Shown: piece after piece, positions 5,261 through 63,191 of the stretch
Numbering within the stretch: the first letter of the stretch is position 1
Layout of the letters: every line of letters starts with the position of its first letter
Origin: Ignavibacteria bacterium
GTDB lineage: Bacteria; Bacteroidota; Ignavibacteria; Kapaibacteriales; UBA4661
Length of the DNA stretch: 64,000 nucleotides
Assembly: GCA_013298775.1 (NCBI GenBank)
Contig: JAAFIV010000007.1
Span: 62,001 to 126,000, forward strand
Direction of reading: 5' to 3'
Program-made: the position numbers and the translations under genes
Notes under the pieces: generated by a model
What the model was told of the DNA's origin: nothing
Databases searched by the model: none
The model's input: only the letters and a program-made list of their open reading frames with translations

Positions 5261-6457
5261 ATGCAACACCAACGCCCATATTTTCTCGCAGTTCTTCTGT
5301 GCTATACGCTCATGCAGGGCGTAGTATTTGCCCAAGAAACCAGCAATAACGAGGCATCTACTGAACTCGCTGCCCGCAAAAACCAAGCGGCAGTAGATTT
5401 TTCCGCAGGACTCACTGCCCTTGAAAAGCAAGACTTTCGCACTGCAAGAAATTCCTTCCGAAGCTCGTATTTACTGGACTCTGCGAATATGACGACGTTG
5501 CGTCATTTCGCCAAAGCCTTGTTTTATGCCGAGTACAAGAACATTGATTCCGTGCGCTTTGTCCGCGAACTCCTGCGCGTGTACGATGTGCGGGGTGGCG
5601 AGGCAAATCCGCTTTGGCAGGAAAAAGGAAATATCTTGAAAAAAGATGTTGGCGACCGCTTGGATGTCCTCATTGCCGATAGCCTACAAGCCGCACAGAA
5701 AGAGGCGTTGCGCTTTGCCACGCAATATCAATACAGCTACCGCGCAACAGCCGTAAAACCCCTCGAACGTCCCAAAGACTCGCTTTCACTCGCTGGAAAA
5801 AGCATCTGGACGGCTTCATTCCTCATTCAAGCTGGTGTTATGCTCCAACCAAACCGCTCGCTCGACCATTGGGGCGATGTGTCGCTCGGTGTGCGTGGCG
5901 CATTTTGGGGGAAAATGTCGGAAACGGCGGATATTGGCGGGGATGTGGGCATACATGGCACATTTGGCGCAATGCTCGAAAGCGGCTCTGTTCCTACACG
6001 TATTGATACCGGAAGCGCACTTCGCCGTATGTATTCTGGTGAGCTTGGTGCGCGATTGCGCTTTTATTTTCATAACACGGGCGTTTTTGCCGTCGGCGGC
6101 TATGGTCGCGTGGAAAACACACAAACTCTGGGCAATACGCCAGAAAACATTGCCACATCTGCTTTGCGGGGTATTCCTTTTCATCTCGTGGGCGCAGGAC
6201 TGCACTGGGAACCTCGCGAAGGCGCAGAGGGTCTGCTCGTCGGCGGACGATTTTTCTTTGTTCCATTTCTCGGCACATACTCGAAAGCCCGCATGATTAC
6301 TGCTCTTGTAGGCTACTCCTTTGGACGCGCCGCCCTCACGCTTGATGCGCTGTACGCAGAACGCTCCGAAAGCACGTCCACACTAGCGGCGCGGGTTTCT
6401 TTGCATTGGCATTTTCTTCAAGCGGTTTCTGAAAAGAAAAGTGAGGAAACACCATGA
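5261..6457 (+). CDS. secreted or outer-membrane protein of unknown function, coupled to VWA-OmpA gene
   Basis: A 398-residue protein. The start at 5261 is chosen because it gives a clean signal peptide (MQHQRPYFLAVLLCYTLMQG then VVFAQ). Residues about 30-130 are helical and alanine-rich and look like a TPR-type segment (AAVDFSAGLTALEKQDFRTA, a spacing typical of TPR helices). From about residue 190 to the end the sequence alternates Gly and aromatic residues in strands (DVSLGVRGAFWGKM, ARLRFYFHNTGVFAVGGYG, ALVGYSFGRAALTLDALYA), as in outer-membrane beta-barrels. Its stop overlaps the start of the next gene by four bases (ATGA), so the two are translationally coupled and probably act together in the envelope. 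I do not recognise a named family. Confidence 0.75.
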   Translation: MQHQRPYFLAVLLCYTLMQGVVFAQETSNNEASTELAARKNQAAVDFSAGLTALEKQDFRTARNSFRSSYLLDSANMTTLRHFAKALFYAEYKNIDSVRFVRELLRVYDVRGGEANPLWQEKGNILKKDVGDRLDVLIADSLQAAQKEALRFATQYQYSYRATAVKPLERPKDSLSLAGKSIWTASFLIQAGVMLQPNRSLDHWGDVSLGVRGAFWGKMSETADIGGDVGIHGTFGAMLESGSVPTRIDTGSALRRMYSGELGARLRFYFHNTGVFAVGGYGRVENTQTLGNTPENIATSALRGIPFHLVGAGLHWEPREGAEGLLVGGRFFFVPFLGTYSKARMITALVGYSFGRAALTLDALYAERSESTSTLAARVSLHWHFLQAVSEKKSEETP

Positions 6458-8352
6458 AACGTTCCATGACACATCAGAAAGAAATGCCAACACTTCTCTT
6501 TGCTAGTGCAGACACTCTTGTCTGCGCAGAATTAGCGCAGGATGCAGGTGGAATTGCCATTACCACGACGCAGACAAGAGTGTCCGCGCTACCGAAGCCC
6601 CAATCTTTACGAACCTTGTTCTGGTGCGCTTTATGGGCATGTTTGCTCATCCTGCCATTTGCACAGCTTTCCGCTCAAACGCCCGCCATTCCTTGTGATT
6701 CCGCTTTCAAACAAGTATTGCTACTCGTTGATGTTTCGGGAAGTATGACAGAGAATGAGCGATTGCTGGAAGTAAAACAATTTGCTCTTCGCATGCTCAA
6801 GGAGCGAGAAAAGGAGCGGCTTCTGTACAAAATTATTTCCTTCGGTGGCGAGTGCAACGACATTCAAACCGATGTTGATTGGACGCGGGATGGAAGTGTC
6901 GTGAGCGCGGGTATCAAGAGCTTGTATTTGCGAGGCGGTACGCCACTTGGTTCTGCGCTGGAATATAGTATTGATGCGGTGAAGAAGTCCGCTTATCCAG
7001 ACCAAACGCAAATTCTTCTGTTTAATGATGGTGCAAATACTTGTGGCGATGTGCGAGAAATCCTTGCTCGGCGCGGCAAAGAAATTCCATGTGTGCGTAT
7101 TCACGTGCTTGGAATTGAATTAGACGAGGAAGATAAATCTCTTACAGACCGCTCTACATCTGACCTTGAAGCAATTCGCTCTCTTGGCAATGGCAAATTT
7201 ATACGCTTGCGCGATATACGAGAAGTGCGCGGAGTAAGTTTTGCTGAAAACCAAGTAACCGTTAGCCCCCAGAGCTTTCCACCACGCGTAAAAAAGTCAA
7301 AACAAGAAGCAACAAAACAAGAAGCAACAAAGCAAGAAATAACAAAGCAGGAAATTGCCAAAAAAGATAGCACGGCACAAAATCCAGCTCAAGTACCTCC
7401 AACGCAAGCAATCAAGCGAGATTCAGCACAAACAGTCCAAGCGCAAGGAACGAAGAGCGATACAGCACAGACACAACAAACACAAGCAATCAAGCGAGAT
7501 TCAGCACAAAGAAGCACTGCTGCGGTCAATGAGCAAAAATCTTCTTCTTCCTTGCCGTCTGCAACACCAAACACAAATCAGGCAGAACGCAAGGAAGCAT
7601 CATCGGTACAAGAGAAAAAGCAGAATAGCGAGCCAAAGCGAATAATTACACAAAACAATCCTCAAAATAATACTCAAAATAATACTCAAACCCGCTCTAC
7701 ACCAAGCACAAATGAAAACGTATCGCAAAAAGAAACGCTCTTAGAAACGCAAACACAACCAGAGAAGAAGAAATCAATTCGCCAAGTACATTCGCCGAAA
7801 GCCGCATCAAAGGCTCCATCAAAGGCTTCCTCAAAGGTTTCCTCAAGGGCTGCGGAAAAGTCGTCTGCCATGAAATTATCTTCTGAAGAGCCAGCATCGC
7901 CACAACCAAGTAAGCGGTACGCTTCGACCGAGAAGCAAGAACAGTCACCAAGCACGGTACAATCTAGCGTAGCGAGCAATGCAGTTTCCCTAGACAGTTC
8001 TTCTTTCCGCGAGGAAGGAATTATTTTGTTTTATCCAACAGGAAGCGACAAACTCCTACCACAGATGACGCAAGGTTTGGAGCGACTTGTGGAGCGTTTA
8101 CGCATGAAAACTATTCGTTCAATTTCGGTGGAAGGGCATAGCAGTATCGAAGGCAATGGCGCGACGAATTTGCGTCTCTCGGTGCAGCGTGCATCGGGTG
8201 TGGCGGCACTTCTGCGCTCACGCTTGGGCTTGTCGGAACGGGTAATTGTTTGGAATGCGTTTGGTGAATTGAAGCCGCTTGCTTCCAATGCAACGGAAGT
8301 GGGAAGGCAGGAAAATCGCCGCGTAGAGGTGCGTGTGCAGGTGGCGGAGTAG
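6454..8352 (+). CDS. von Willebrand A domain protein with C-terminal OmpA-like domain
   Basis: A 632-residue envelope protein. The N-terminus (about 50 residues) comes before a signal sequence (LFWCALWACLLILPFAQLSA) and much of it is encoded by an inserted copy of the dispersed palindromic element (6503-6592), so the translated leader is unusual. Residues 85-270 form a VWA domain with the metal-binding MIDAS motif DVSGSM (Asp93, Ser95, Ser97). A long Gln/Lys/Ser/Thr-rich linker with repeats such as KQEATKQEATKQE and QAIKRDSAQ follows (about 285-520). Residues about 525-630 are an OmpA-like peptidoglycan-binding domain (ISVEGHSSIEGNGATNLRLS, ENRRVEVRV). It starts inside the stop of the upstream gene. 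Likely a cell-wall-anchored periplasmic or outer-membrane protein that binds a partner through VWA. Confidence 0.88.
   Translation: MKRSMTHQKEMPTLLFASADTLVCAELAQDAGGIAITTTQTRVSALPKPQSLRTLFWCALWACLLILPFAQLSAQTPAIPCDSAFKQVLLLVDVSGSMTENERLLEVKQFALRMLKEREKERLLYKIISFGGECNDIQTDVDWTRDGSVVSAGIKSLYLRGGTPLGSALEYSIDAVKKSAYPDQTQILLFNDGANTCGDVREILARRGKEIPCVRIHVLGIELDEEDKSLTDRSTSDLEAIRSLGNGKFIRLRDIREVRGVSFAENQVTVSPQSFPPRVKKSKQEATKQEATKQEITKQEIAKKDSTAQNPAQVPPTQAIKRDSAQTVQAQGTKSDTAQTQQTQAIKRDSAQRSTAAVNEQKSSSSLPSATPNTNQAERKEASSVQEKKQNSEPKRIITQNNPQNNTQNNTQTRSTPSTNENVSQKETLLETQTQPEKKKSIRQVHSPKAASKAPSKASSKVSSRAAEKSSAMKLSSEEPASPQPSKRYASTEKQEQSPSTVQSSVASNAVSLDSSSFREEGIILFYPTGSDKLLPQMTQGLERLVERLRMKTIRSISVEGHSSIEGNGATNLRLSVQRASGVAALLRSRLGLSERVIVWNAFGELKPLASNATEVGRQENRRVEVRVQVAE
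6503..6592. repeat. palindromic element, GC-type copy inside a coding sequence
   Basis: Left arm GCGCAGACA-type hairpin sequence (GTGCAGACACTCTTGTCTGC) and right arm GCAGACAAGAGTGTCCGCGC are inverted repeats about 40 bases apart and end with the flank GCTACCGAAGCC shared with copies near 28745 and 40200. The copy is read in frame as about residues 17-48 of the VWA-OmpA protein. Confidence 0.85.
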
Positions 8353-8640: not shown

Positions 8641-8823
8641 GGTACTAAATGATTTCAGTTGGAAATCAGGTGTGGTATTGGATTGAAAAGGTACAAAAAC
8701 AAAGAGTGGCACAGACATTCTTGTCTGTGTTTTCCACCTGAATCCCGTACCAACACTCACAGACAAGAATGTCTGTGCCACTCACGAGGTAAGGATTCTT
8801 TCCAACTGAAATCATTTAGTACC
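8641..8823. repeat. palindromic element with perfect 25-bp outer inverted repeats
   Basis: The core (8704-8783) has the two CACAGACATTCTTGTCTGTG-type arms in inverted orientation. Outside it, positions 8641-8665 and 8799-8823 are perfect 25-bp inverted repeats starting GGTACTAAATGATTTCAG. These outer arms differ from the GTACACGACAAAA ends of other copies. It lies in the 680-base gap 8353-9031, which holds no gene. Confidence 0.93.
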
Positions 8824-10628: not shown

Positions 10629-10765
10629 CACGACAAAATTTCTTCAATAGTAGCACAGACATTCTTGTCTGTGAGTATTAGTGCGGGTCTCAGGCGACAA
10701 ACACAGACAAGAATGTCTGTGCCACTAAAGTCTGAATCTACAAACGCTGAAGGAATTTTGTCGTG
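10629..10765. repeat. palindromic element, complete copy
   Basis: Outer ends CACGACAAAATTTCTTCA and TGAAGGAATTTTGTCGTG match at 17 of 18 positions. The inner arms (about 10650-10673 and 10702-10725) carry CACAGACATTCTTGTCTGTG and its inverse. It fills the gap between the aldehyde dehydrogenase and dipeptidase genes and ends 20 bases before the dipeptidase start. Confidence 0.92.
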
Positions 10766-13132: not shown

Positions 13133-13159
13133 GGTCTGGAAGCCTTATACAATCAGGCT

Positions 13160-13192
13160 TTCGTAGCGCGGACACTCTTGTCTGCGCAGCTC
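13160..13192. repeat. single-arm fragment of palindromic element
   Basis: CTTTCGTAGCGCGGACACTC followed by TTGTCTGCGC is one GC-type arm. Its right end touches the stop codon of the GAF/GGDEF-like gene read on the minus strand. No second arm is present. Confidence 0.7.
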
Positions 13193-16382: not shown

Positions 16383-16526
16383 GTACACGACAAAATTTCT
16401 TCAACAGTGGCACAGACATTCTTGTCTGTGAGCATTCGTAAGAGATTCAAGCGATAAACACAGACAGGAATGTCTGTGCCACGGAAGCCTGATTCTATCT
16501 GCTATTCAAAGATTCTATTCATGTAC
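16383..16526. repeat. palindromic element, nearly complete copy
   Basis: Left end GTACACGACAAAATTTCTTC; right end degenerate (TTCAAAGATT...ATGTAC). The inner arms are intact (CACAGACATTCTTGTCTGTG and its inverse with one change). It lies between the Nudix and GAF protein genes, 23 bases upstream of the latter's start. Confidence 0.9.
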
Positions 16527-17075: not shown

Positions 17076-17121
17076 AGCAGCTACATCTCAGAAATTTTCA
17101 AAAAGTAAATGCAAAATGTTC

Positions 17122-17200
17122 AGTGGCACAGACATTCTTGTCTGTGAGTGTTAGTGAGGGATTCAGGTGAAAAAACACAAACAAGAATGTCTGTGCCACT
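17122..17200. repeat. palindromic element, core copy
   Basis: AGTGGCACAGACATTCTTGT at the left and the inverse ending TGTCTGTGCCACT at the right, with the usual TTCAGGTGA-like spacer. The outer flanks (AAGTAAATG.. and ..ATCACTT) are only weakly inverted. It lies between ndk and the Nudix gene. Confidence 0.9.
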
Positions 17201-17247
17201 ATGAACTTTTATCACTTATTTTCTACCATCCCCAAAGAAGTTAAAAT

Positions 17248-18972: not shown

Positions 18973-19115
18973 ACACACGATAGAATCTCTCAAGAGCTGG
19001 TAAAATCTGGCTTCAGTGGCACAGACATTCTTGTCTGTGTTTCCATCTGGAATCGTGTGCCAATACTCACAGACAAGAATGTCTGTGCCACTAGTGAAGA
19101 AATTTTGTCGTGTAC
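18973..19115. repeat. palindromic element upstream of sucD
   Basis: The inner arms (about 19015-19040 and 19068-19092) are intact. The right outer end TTTTGTCGTGTAC is well conserved; the left (CACACGATAGAATCTC) is diverged. It lies between sucD and the tRNA-Phe gene. The rest of the gap 18921-19438 is AT-rich and carries only the tRNA terminator. Confidence 0.88.
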
Positions 19116-28668: not shown

Positions 28669-28802
28669 CTAGTAGTCCGTCAAACAAATGTTTAGCGTCT
28701 TGTGGCGCAGACAAGAGTGTCTGCGCTACCGCACAATACTGGCTTCGGTAGCACAGACACTCTTGTCTCAAGCCTCTTCAAATACATTTGACAGACTACT
28801 AG
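28669..28802. repeat. palindromic element, GC-type core with CTAGTAGTC ends
   Basis: Outer ends CTAGTAGTCCGTCAAA and TTTGACAGACTACTAG form an inverted repeat (one mismatch). Inside are GC-type arms (GCGCAGACAAGAGTGTCTGC; GCACAGACACTCTTGTCT). The right end includes the TAG stop codon (28799-28801) of the minus-strand OmpA paralogue. Confidence 0.88.
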
Positions 28803-36932: not shown

Positions 36933-36972
36933 TGTCGGCATTGATTTGGAGTAATTGTTTCTGCTTTGCAAT

Positions 36973-37050
36973 AGTGGTACAGACATTCTTATCTGTAAGT
37001 GTTGGTGCTGGGTTCAGGTGATAAACACAGACACAAATATCTGTGCCACT
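36973..37050. repeat. palindromic element, core copy between purH and clpB
   Basis: Arms GTGGTACAGACATTCTTATC and CAAATATCTGTGCCAC are diverged by several substitutions but keep the spacing and the GTTCAGGTGATAAA spacer. The outer ends TTGCAATAGTGG/CCACTATTGGC are short. Confidence 0.85.
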
Positions 37051-37082
37051 ATTGGCTTTTACCACGTATTTTGTTCCGCTCT

Positions 37083-39921: not shown

Positions 39922-40285
39922 AAATTCCTATAATGGAAATTCGTGGAAGTCCAAACGTAAAAGACAACATGACGGCTGAAACAGCATACAATTTACCATG
40001 ATAGCATGTATTTCTCCAAGTCTGACACATATTTTTTGTAAATTTGTTCTTTGGGGCTAAGTATTCTACGTCATCTTGAATATCATCTGGTTGTCTTGTG
40101 TGTATTCAGAACTTTCCCCGTGAAGTATGATAGAACTTTCGCAAATGGCGCAGACAGGAGTGTTACGCGCTACCGTCTGCAACGAGGTTTCATACGACTT
40201 CGGTAGAACAGACACTCTTGTCTGTTCCAGACAATGAGCATTTTGCGCACGTCCTATATGAAGTATCATCCTTTTTCAGAATTCC
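39922..40285. other. intergenic region upstream of giant T9SS gene
   Basis: 364 bases with no supported gene. It holds a diverged palindromic element (40147-40227) and otherwise only AT-rich sequence in the holA-proximal half. Confidence 0.5.
40147..40227. repeat. palindromic element, diverged GC-type copy
   Basis: Left arm GGCGCAGACAGGAGTGTTAC; right arm CTTCGGTAGAACAGACACTC then TTGTCTGTTC. The right arm and its CTTCGGTAG flank match the copies at 6592 (inverse) and 28743. Confidence 0.75.
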
Positions 40286-58861: not shown

Positions 58862-59002
58862 TACACGACAAAACTTCTTCAGCAGTGGCACAGACATTCT
58901 TGTCTGTGAGTGTTGGTGCGGGATTCAGGTGAGAAACACAGACAGGAAGTCTCAAGCCACTGAAGCCTGATTCTACGAGCTTTTCAGAGGTTTTGTCGTG
59001 TA
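58862..59002. repeat. palindromic element, complete copy
   Basis: Outer ends TACACGACAAAAC and GTTTTGTCGTGTA match perfectly over 13 bp. The left inner arm is intact; the right arm has changes (GACAGGAAGTCTCAAGCCAC). It lies between the lipoprotein gene and the convergent Uma2 gene. Confidence 0.93.
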
Positions 59003-61287: not shown

Positions 61288-61425
61288 CATATAAAATTTC
61301 TTTATCAGTAGCACAGACATTCTTGTCTGTAAGTATTGGTGCCGTGTTCAGGCGAGCAACACAGACAAGAATGCCTGTGCCACTCAAGTCTGTATTTACT
61401 GTGGTATTGAGAGATTGTATCATGC
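61288..61425. repeat. palindromic element upstream of trpC
   Basis: The inner arms (61308-61333 and 61360-61384) are near-intact. The outer ends GCATATAAAATTTC and GATTGTATCATGC are weakly inverted and differ from the GTACACGACAAAA type. It lies in the 372-base gap 61115-61486 between aroC and trpC, which holds no gene, and ends 62 bases before the trpC start. Confidence 0.87.
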
Positions 61426-63048: not shown

Positions 63049-63191
63049 GTACACGACAAAATTCCTTTCATAGTGGCACAGACATTCTTGTCTGTGAGTA
63101 TCGGTGCAAGGTTCAGGTGAAAAACACAGACAAGAATGTCTGTGCCACTGAAGCCTGATTTTATCAATGTTTCAAAGATTTTATCGTGTAC
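63049..63191. repeat. palindromic element upstream of trpB, complete copy
   Basis: Outer ends GTACACGACAAAATTCCTTT and GATTTTATCGTGTAC; inner arms CACAGACATTCTTGTCTGTG and CACAGACAAGAATGTCTGTG are both intact. It ends 23 bases before the trpB ATG and fills most of the gap after the acidic protein gene. Confidence 0.93.

Follow-up and report, generated by a model that had tools for sequence, protein, structure and literature searches.

In a 64,000-nt stretch of DNA from an Ignavibacteria bacterium (hereafter, the window), a gene coding for a VWA-OmpA protein carries a palindrome near its 5′ end, in a frame that stays open. This locus raises the question of what the palindrome is, and of whether it is translated as part of the leader of an exported protein.

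A preliminary description of the window had placed a palindromic element at 6503-6592, and this was borne out. The window contains an inverted repeat with arms of 29 nt at 6498-6526 and 6569-6597, which are 86% complementary. Folded as RNA, the element region reaches -48.2 kcal/mol (z = -5.8), a stability equalled by 0 of 200 shuffles, and a 20-mer from its core has five matches in the window with up to three mismatches, compared to none in 100 shuffles. With the element as query, BLAST returned 118 pieces from the 5.19-Mb genome to which it belongs. The inverted repeat is thus confirmed as real and not a chance product.

Once aligned, the units share a 32-nt pattern, GGCTTC-GGTAG followed by a hairpin, whose stem shows G-C/A-U and C-G/G-C exchanges. 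The stem comprises 9 bp, with 96% of cells paired and a compensatory G-C to A-U change in 9 of 35 sequences. Positions G8, T9, A10 and G11 are invariant or nearly so across the 35 units (in the window, unit 2 has GTAG and unit 1 CTAG). The element is a REP doublet at 6496-6599, made of two inverted 32-nt units, each consisting of GGCTTC-GGTAG and a 9-bp hairpin. In the ORF that begins at 6454 it encodes residues 15-49; the earlier estimate, about residues 17-48, was right as to location and slightly too narrow when measured by the units that covariance model R1 recognizes. The features of the locus are the following:

5261..6457, + strand: preceding gene, coding for an outer-membrane-type protein, in an operon shared with the host gene
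6443..6446, + strand: Shine-Dalgarno-like GAGG, 7 nt 5′ of ATG 6454 (from the sequence)
6454..6457, + strand: ATGA, the host gene start overlapping the stop of the preceding gene
6454..8352, + strand: host gene, VWA-OmpA, 632 aa (from the ORF list), coding in order for a long leader, the signal peptide, VWA_2 (residues 88-193), a low-complexity linker and OmpA (residues 527-622)
6496..6527, + strand: REP unit 1, foot GTAG decayed to CTAG (R1, 43.5 bits)
6528..6567, no strand: doublet spacer, 40 nt (the modal spacer for the same arrangement in the genome is 26 nt)
6568..6599, - strand: REP unit 2, inverted, foot GGCTTCGGTAG intact (R1, 52.1 bits)
6580..6582, + strand: in-frame GTG in REP unit 2, residue 43, the strongest candidate for an internal start (from the sequence)
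6616..6618, + strand: in-frame TTG, residue 55, with no ribosome-binding site and no positive charge after it (from the sequence)
6619..6663, + strand: hydrophobic core of the signal peptide (FWCALWACLLILPFA), then QLSAQ (from the translation)

The host protein matches VWA_2 (4.2e-12) and OmpA (2.2e-10) in Pfam. Its hydrophobic core lies downstream of the element, as had been proposed, and starts at residue 56 (6619) rather than near residue 52.

The unit belongs to a large family. At least 146 REP units were found in the own genome with R1 (E ≤ 0.001), and a weight-matrix scan of 914 kb, comprising the regions around matches and the window and hence skewed towards REP-bearing regions, gave 374 units in 214 clusters. 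These include 72 '+-' doublets (spacer mostly 26 nt), 64 '-+' doublets (mostly 14 or 4 nt) and 67 singles. The 136 inverted doublets thus have spacer peaks at 26 and at 14/4 nt, among which the 40 nt of the window copy is atypical. According to a rough gene caller, 201 of the 214 clusters are intergenic. In the window, other copies of the same REP lie at 8699-8788, 10643-10732, 13156-13187, 16400-16489, 17116-17206, 19009-19098, 28705-28772, 36967-37056, 40148-40227, 58878-58909, 61301-61390 and 63066-63155; those at 8699, 10643 and 13156 stand between called genes, and that at 16400 on the 5′ side of a gene. Among related genomes, the family is present in G001, G005, G006 and G007 and absent or nearly so in G002-G004. 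It is a genus-wide family of Candidatus Kapaibacterium-type MAGs.

Its anatomy identifies the element as a GTAG-type REP doublet: the foot is GTAG, the unit forms a hairpin, the doublets are inverted and a RAYT is bordered by the unit. The hairpin-forming unit falls within 20-40 nt, GTAG stands as a 5′ foot, and the copy number is high and mostly intergenic. The family also pairs its REPs in inverted orientation around a short spacer of recurrent length, as in REPINs. A RAYT flanked by inverted copies of the window REP, the arrangement of a REPtron, is found in G005, G006 and G007; the window's own genome shows none. There, neither of the two RAYT-like genes (one of them with a stop codon) has an adjoining copy of this REP, and other palindromes adjoin them instead. 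These two genes, L152 and L153, are bordered by GTGAGGGTCTCA... and GTGCGGGAGCCTCGC..., apparently separate repeat families. The REP family is therefore RAYT-linked within the genus, through the REP-flanked RAYTs of sister species, and the window genome seems to have lost its partner or never to have had it.

The preliminary description had compared the element with the Rickettsia palindromic elements (RPEs). The comparison holds for behaviour, since the REP is likewise inserted in frame within ORFs, and fails for anatomy, which is that of a REP doublet with a RAYT link. RPEs are known above all for inserting in frame within ORFs, but the build of the unit, its GTAG foot, the inverted arrangement of the doublets and the RAYT bordered by this unit all fit a REP, and a true RPE, or a MITE of another transposon, is hardly credible here. 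It is because the sister-species RAYT is flanked by the same REPs that we retain GTAG-type REP identity; RPE identity was set aside on anatomy.

To see what the leader looks like without the doublet, we turn to VWA-OmpA orthologues from four further lineages of this genus, G001, G002, G006 and G007 (by identical leaders L303, L304, L302 and L305, from MAGs labelled Ignavibacteria or Candidatus Kapaibacterium). All four keep a Shine-Dalgarno sequence (GGAG, GAGG or AGGAGG) at the same place and a signal peptide. In all four the ATG overlaps the upstream stop, as ATGA in three and as TAATG in G007, and homologues of the preceding gene (5261..6457) also stand before orthologous VWA-OmpA genes in relatives. 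No REP was detected in the leaders L302-L305 with R1 up to E 0.1. All are shorter than that of the window; those of G001, G006 and G007 are short and that of G002 is fairly long without a REP. The alignment with orthologues that had been proposed as a check thus yields four element-free, shorter leaders with a conserved start, and the proposal that the ATGA overlap sets the normal start agrees with the overlap kept between start and stop. As the orthologues are only about 50% identical to the host gene, the empty site is not base-exact. The closest relative, sister species G005, gives no base-exact empty site either, since it has the downstream aldehyde-dehydrogenase-like gene and is without the preceding gene and the VWA-OmpA gene.

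Alternatively, the start could be displaced to GTG 6580, inside the element, or to TTG 6616, directly behind it, the REP then being a 5′ untranslated hairpin within the operon. Initiation at GTG 6580 would yield an acceptable signal peptide, SALPKPQSLR-FWCALW..., with K and R in a plausible n-region, and several REPs upstream of genes in the own genome are clearly untranslated, with a start after the REP (class B). However, neither 6580 nor 6616 has a ribosome-binding site, whereas GAGG lies before ATG 6454; the orthologues keep a start that overlaps the upstream stop, and initiation at 6616 would leave no positive charge. We regard a displaced start as unlikely, and the internal TTG near 6615 (at 6616) that had been put forward for checking as a poor candidate, without ribosome-binding site or positively charged n-region. 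Conserved coupling to the upstream gene favours ATG 6454 as the probable start, and translation is likely to pass in frame through the element; a predicted tryptic peptide diagnostic of such translation is EMPTLLFASADTLVCAELAQDAGGIAITTTQTR. The insertion had been thought to keep the frame and to lengthen the leader by about 30 residues. The in-frame reading, the conserved start and the shorter orthologue leaders agree with this, the added length being rather about 35.

We consider it quite probable that a doublet of a RAYT-dispersed GTAG REP inserted in frame in the n-region of the signal peptide, is translated from ATG 6454 and is removed with the signal peptide, being nearly neutral. A RAYT would disperse the GTAG-type REP family through the genus, and one doublet, of a length that keeps the reading frame, would have come to lie in the VWA-OmpA gene roughly from codon 14 to codon 50. 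Translation from ATG 6454 would then cross both REP hairpins and extend the n-region by about 35 residues, Sec would still export the host protein, and the extension would be cut off with the signal peptide. With the extension removed and export kept, the insertion would therefore cost next to nothing and survive. Under the same tolerance filter, in-frame copies would gather in other leaders, a propeptide and loops.

Finding a REP in an open frame is weak evidence on its own, since five of the six frames of the consensus unit have no stop (a reading of the consensus itself; chance expectation ~3.5), and a stricter leader test was applied. A leader counted when one uninterrupted frame led from a start ahead of the REP, across the REP and into a core resembling that of a signal peptide, and when no further usable start, taken as a start codon together with K/R, separated REP from core. 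Ten leaders satisfy this (L094, L095, L101, L105, L111, L141, L142, L192, L200 and the window), compared to 0.8 of 214 clusters expected from random placement, an expectation that gives an order of magnitude, as the gene caller and the signal-peptide rule are crude. An eleventh match, L086, is an internal loop and was left out of the ten. A protein-coding palindromic element had been called unusual; this does not hold here, where in-frame copies occur in nine further leaders and at several internal sites.

Orthologues support the OmpA gene L101 best. Its start region is common to the own genome and seven relatives, and its leader REPs are present in the own genome, G005, G001, G006 and G007 and absent in G002 and G004 (G003 was left out of R1 scoring). 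The REP peptides of G001/G006 differ from those of own/G005, and in G007 the REP array also offers a start at its end. The L101 leader REP is in frame in both own and G005, with dN 0.12 and dS 0.38; the L142 leader, also common to both, gives dN 0.19 and dS 0.52 (in each case over the first 75 codons, some mature sequence included). At L094 the REP readings differ between own and G005, and orthologue leaders settle nothing for L095, L105, L111, L141, L192 and L200. Counting every open-frame REP upstream of a gene as coding was rejected, as many have their true start after the REP. The Omp85 gene L121 was likewise rejected as an in-frame insertion: the REP is probably untranslated there because what looks like a conserved 'N-terminus' upstream has the form of an intrinsic terminator, GCCCGAC...GTCGGGC-T9. 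At L121 and L209 this terminator, common with G005, reads as an open N-terminus before an Omp85-like gene, a trap for start calling. In G007 (L245, L272), an OmpA-protein leader of about 190 codons is made of several REPs and a second repeat (CDREAPAYANIFPRSTDIL).

These leaders bear on two other explanations. The host gene could be dying, its leader ruined by the insertion and its open frame a recent accident, an event to which the appreciable chance of an open frame through an insert lends something; but its 632 codons are open with coding-like composition, the VWA and OmpA domains are intact, and REP-bearing leaders at other genes persist in frame in two species, which makes decay highly improbable. 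The leader REP could also be useful, a strong hairpin in the first 50 codons damping or timing translation of exported proteins and being kept by selection. The fold z-score, the recurrence of REPs in exported-protein leaders and the REP arrangements that differ between species at the same OmpA leader and at an acylase site would all suit this. Tolerance of the n-region explains the same pattern, however, unit 1 is decayed and the orthologues manage without a REP, so that we give a selected hairpin only a small chance.

In-frame copies are also found inside proteins. In penicillin amidase L117, REPs lie in the segment immediately before the GSNAW motif, which we take to be the excised spacer peptide; in G001 (L117 and L235 compared) REPs occupy the same segment in an arrangement different from that of the own genome. 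Further internal copies are found in cytochrome b (L096), an NFACT protein (L093), an ABC-permease/M1-peptidase protein (L086) and L076.

The RAYT itself can lie within a host gene. In G005 and G006, a REP-flanked RAYT and RecG form one open frame, whose product is matched by RecG and RAYT models alike; in G007 the halves are on two contigs with overlapping ends. The insert sits between DEQHRFG and SATPIPRT, at the DEQH and SAT helicase motifs. These loci (L309 in G005, L310 in G006, L312+L324 in G007) are patchy among close relatives, the loop being plain in G001-G004 and G009. In the own recG (L311), the same loop carries a different in-frame palindrome, encoding IPTLLPEGEG...PSPSGRGLGEG. 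On a RecG tree the carriers do not form a clade (G005 groups with G000 and G006 with G001), which implies repeated gain or loss. By eye against PMC6006769, where the class 2 catalytic tyrosine lies in the Y---NP motif, the HUH (DHVH) and Y---NP motifs of the embedded RAYTs are intact; all three have Y---NP, which speaks against a loss of the catalytic tyrosine. Among the 44 RAYT matches listed for the order, six are in open frames of more than 500 aa, the three RecG and those of G012, G091 and G083. The latter (L155, L342 and L359) are in frame in large DNA methylase/restriction-like ORFs, hosts judged by motif only, with repeated REP-like peptides near the RAYTs. We tentatively suggest that in this order the REP/RAYT system may live as translated matter. 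Its REPs would gather in cleaved or disordered protein segments, and its RAYT, flanked by REPs and in frame, would be made as a domain within host DNA enzymes, chiefly the fork helicase RecG. This would in effect be an inserted transposase that does not splice itself out and that its host carries to replication forks.

In-frame REPs inside ORFs are already published (PMC3733652, PMC6006769). In the open-licence literature searched, no precedent was found for their concentration in leaders, nor for a RecG-embedded RAYT or a helicase fusion of RAYT. REPs seem to be translated where the cell tolerates them most easily. If this is true, a non-coding mobile repeat supplies new peptide sequence at a predictable, tolerant and discarded part of the signal peptide. 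One leader with and without the insert across species makes the tolerance of the Sec n-region for long extensions directly testable, and the RecG-embedded transposase suggests a testable link between RAYT and the replication fork.

REPINs, which Bertels and Rainey reportedly described in 2011 as two inverted REPs with a short spacer, resemble the present family in this architecture, in high copy number and in having a RAYT in the genus; the window copy differs by its spacer, and its genome by having no RAYT flanked by the window REP. The GTAG REPs of Di Nocera et al. 2013 (PMC3733652) share the GTAG foot, the hairpin, inverted dimers and the REP-flanked RAYT, and some of their copies are in frame in ORFs, N-termini included. 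These authors note many repair genes, doubt the N-terminal cases and warn that many N-terminal REPs are extragenic (PMC3733652). Here, in contrast, the in-frame copies concentrate in exported proteins, in the stretch that runs from the start codon to the core of the signal peptide, and a conserved start supports N-terminal cases at some genes. RPEs (cited in PMC3733652) are also protein-coding palindromes inserted in frame, and differ in anatomy from our RAYT-linked GTAG REP. Finally, tnpAREP subclass 2.4 genes with in-frame REPs (PMC6006769) likewise show frame-keeping REP insertions in a tolerant protein region; the host there is the transposase itself, whereas here it is the n-region of a signal peptide.
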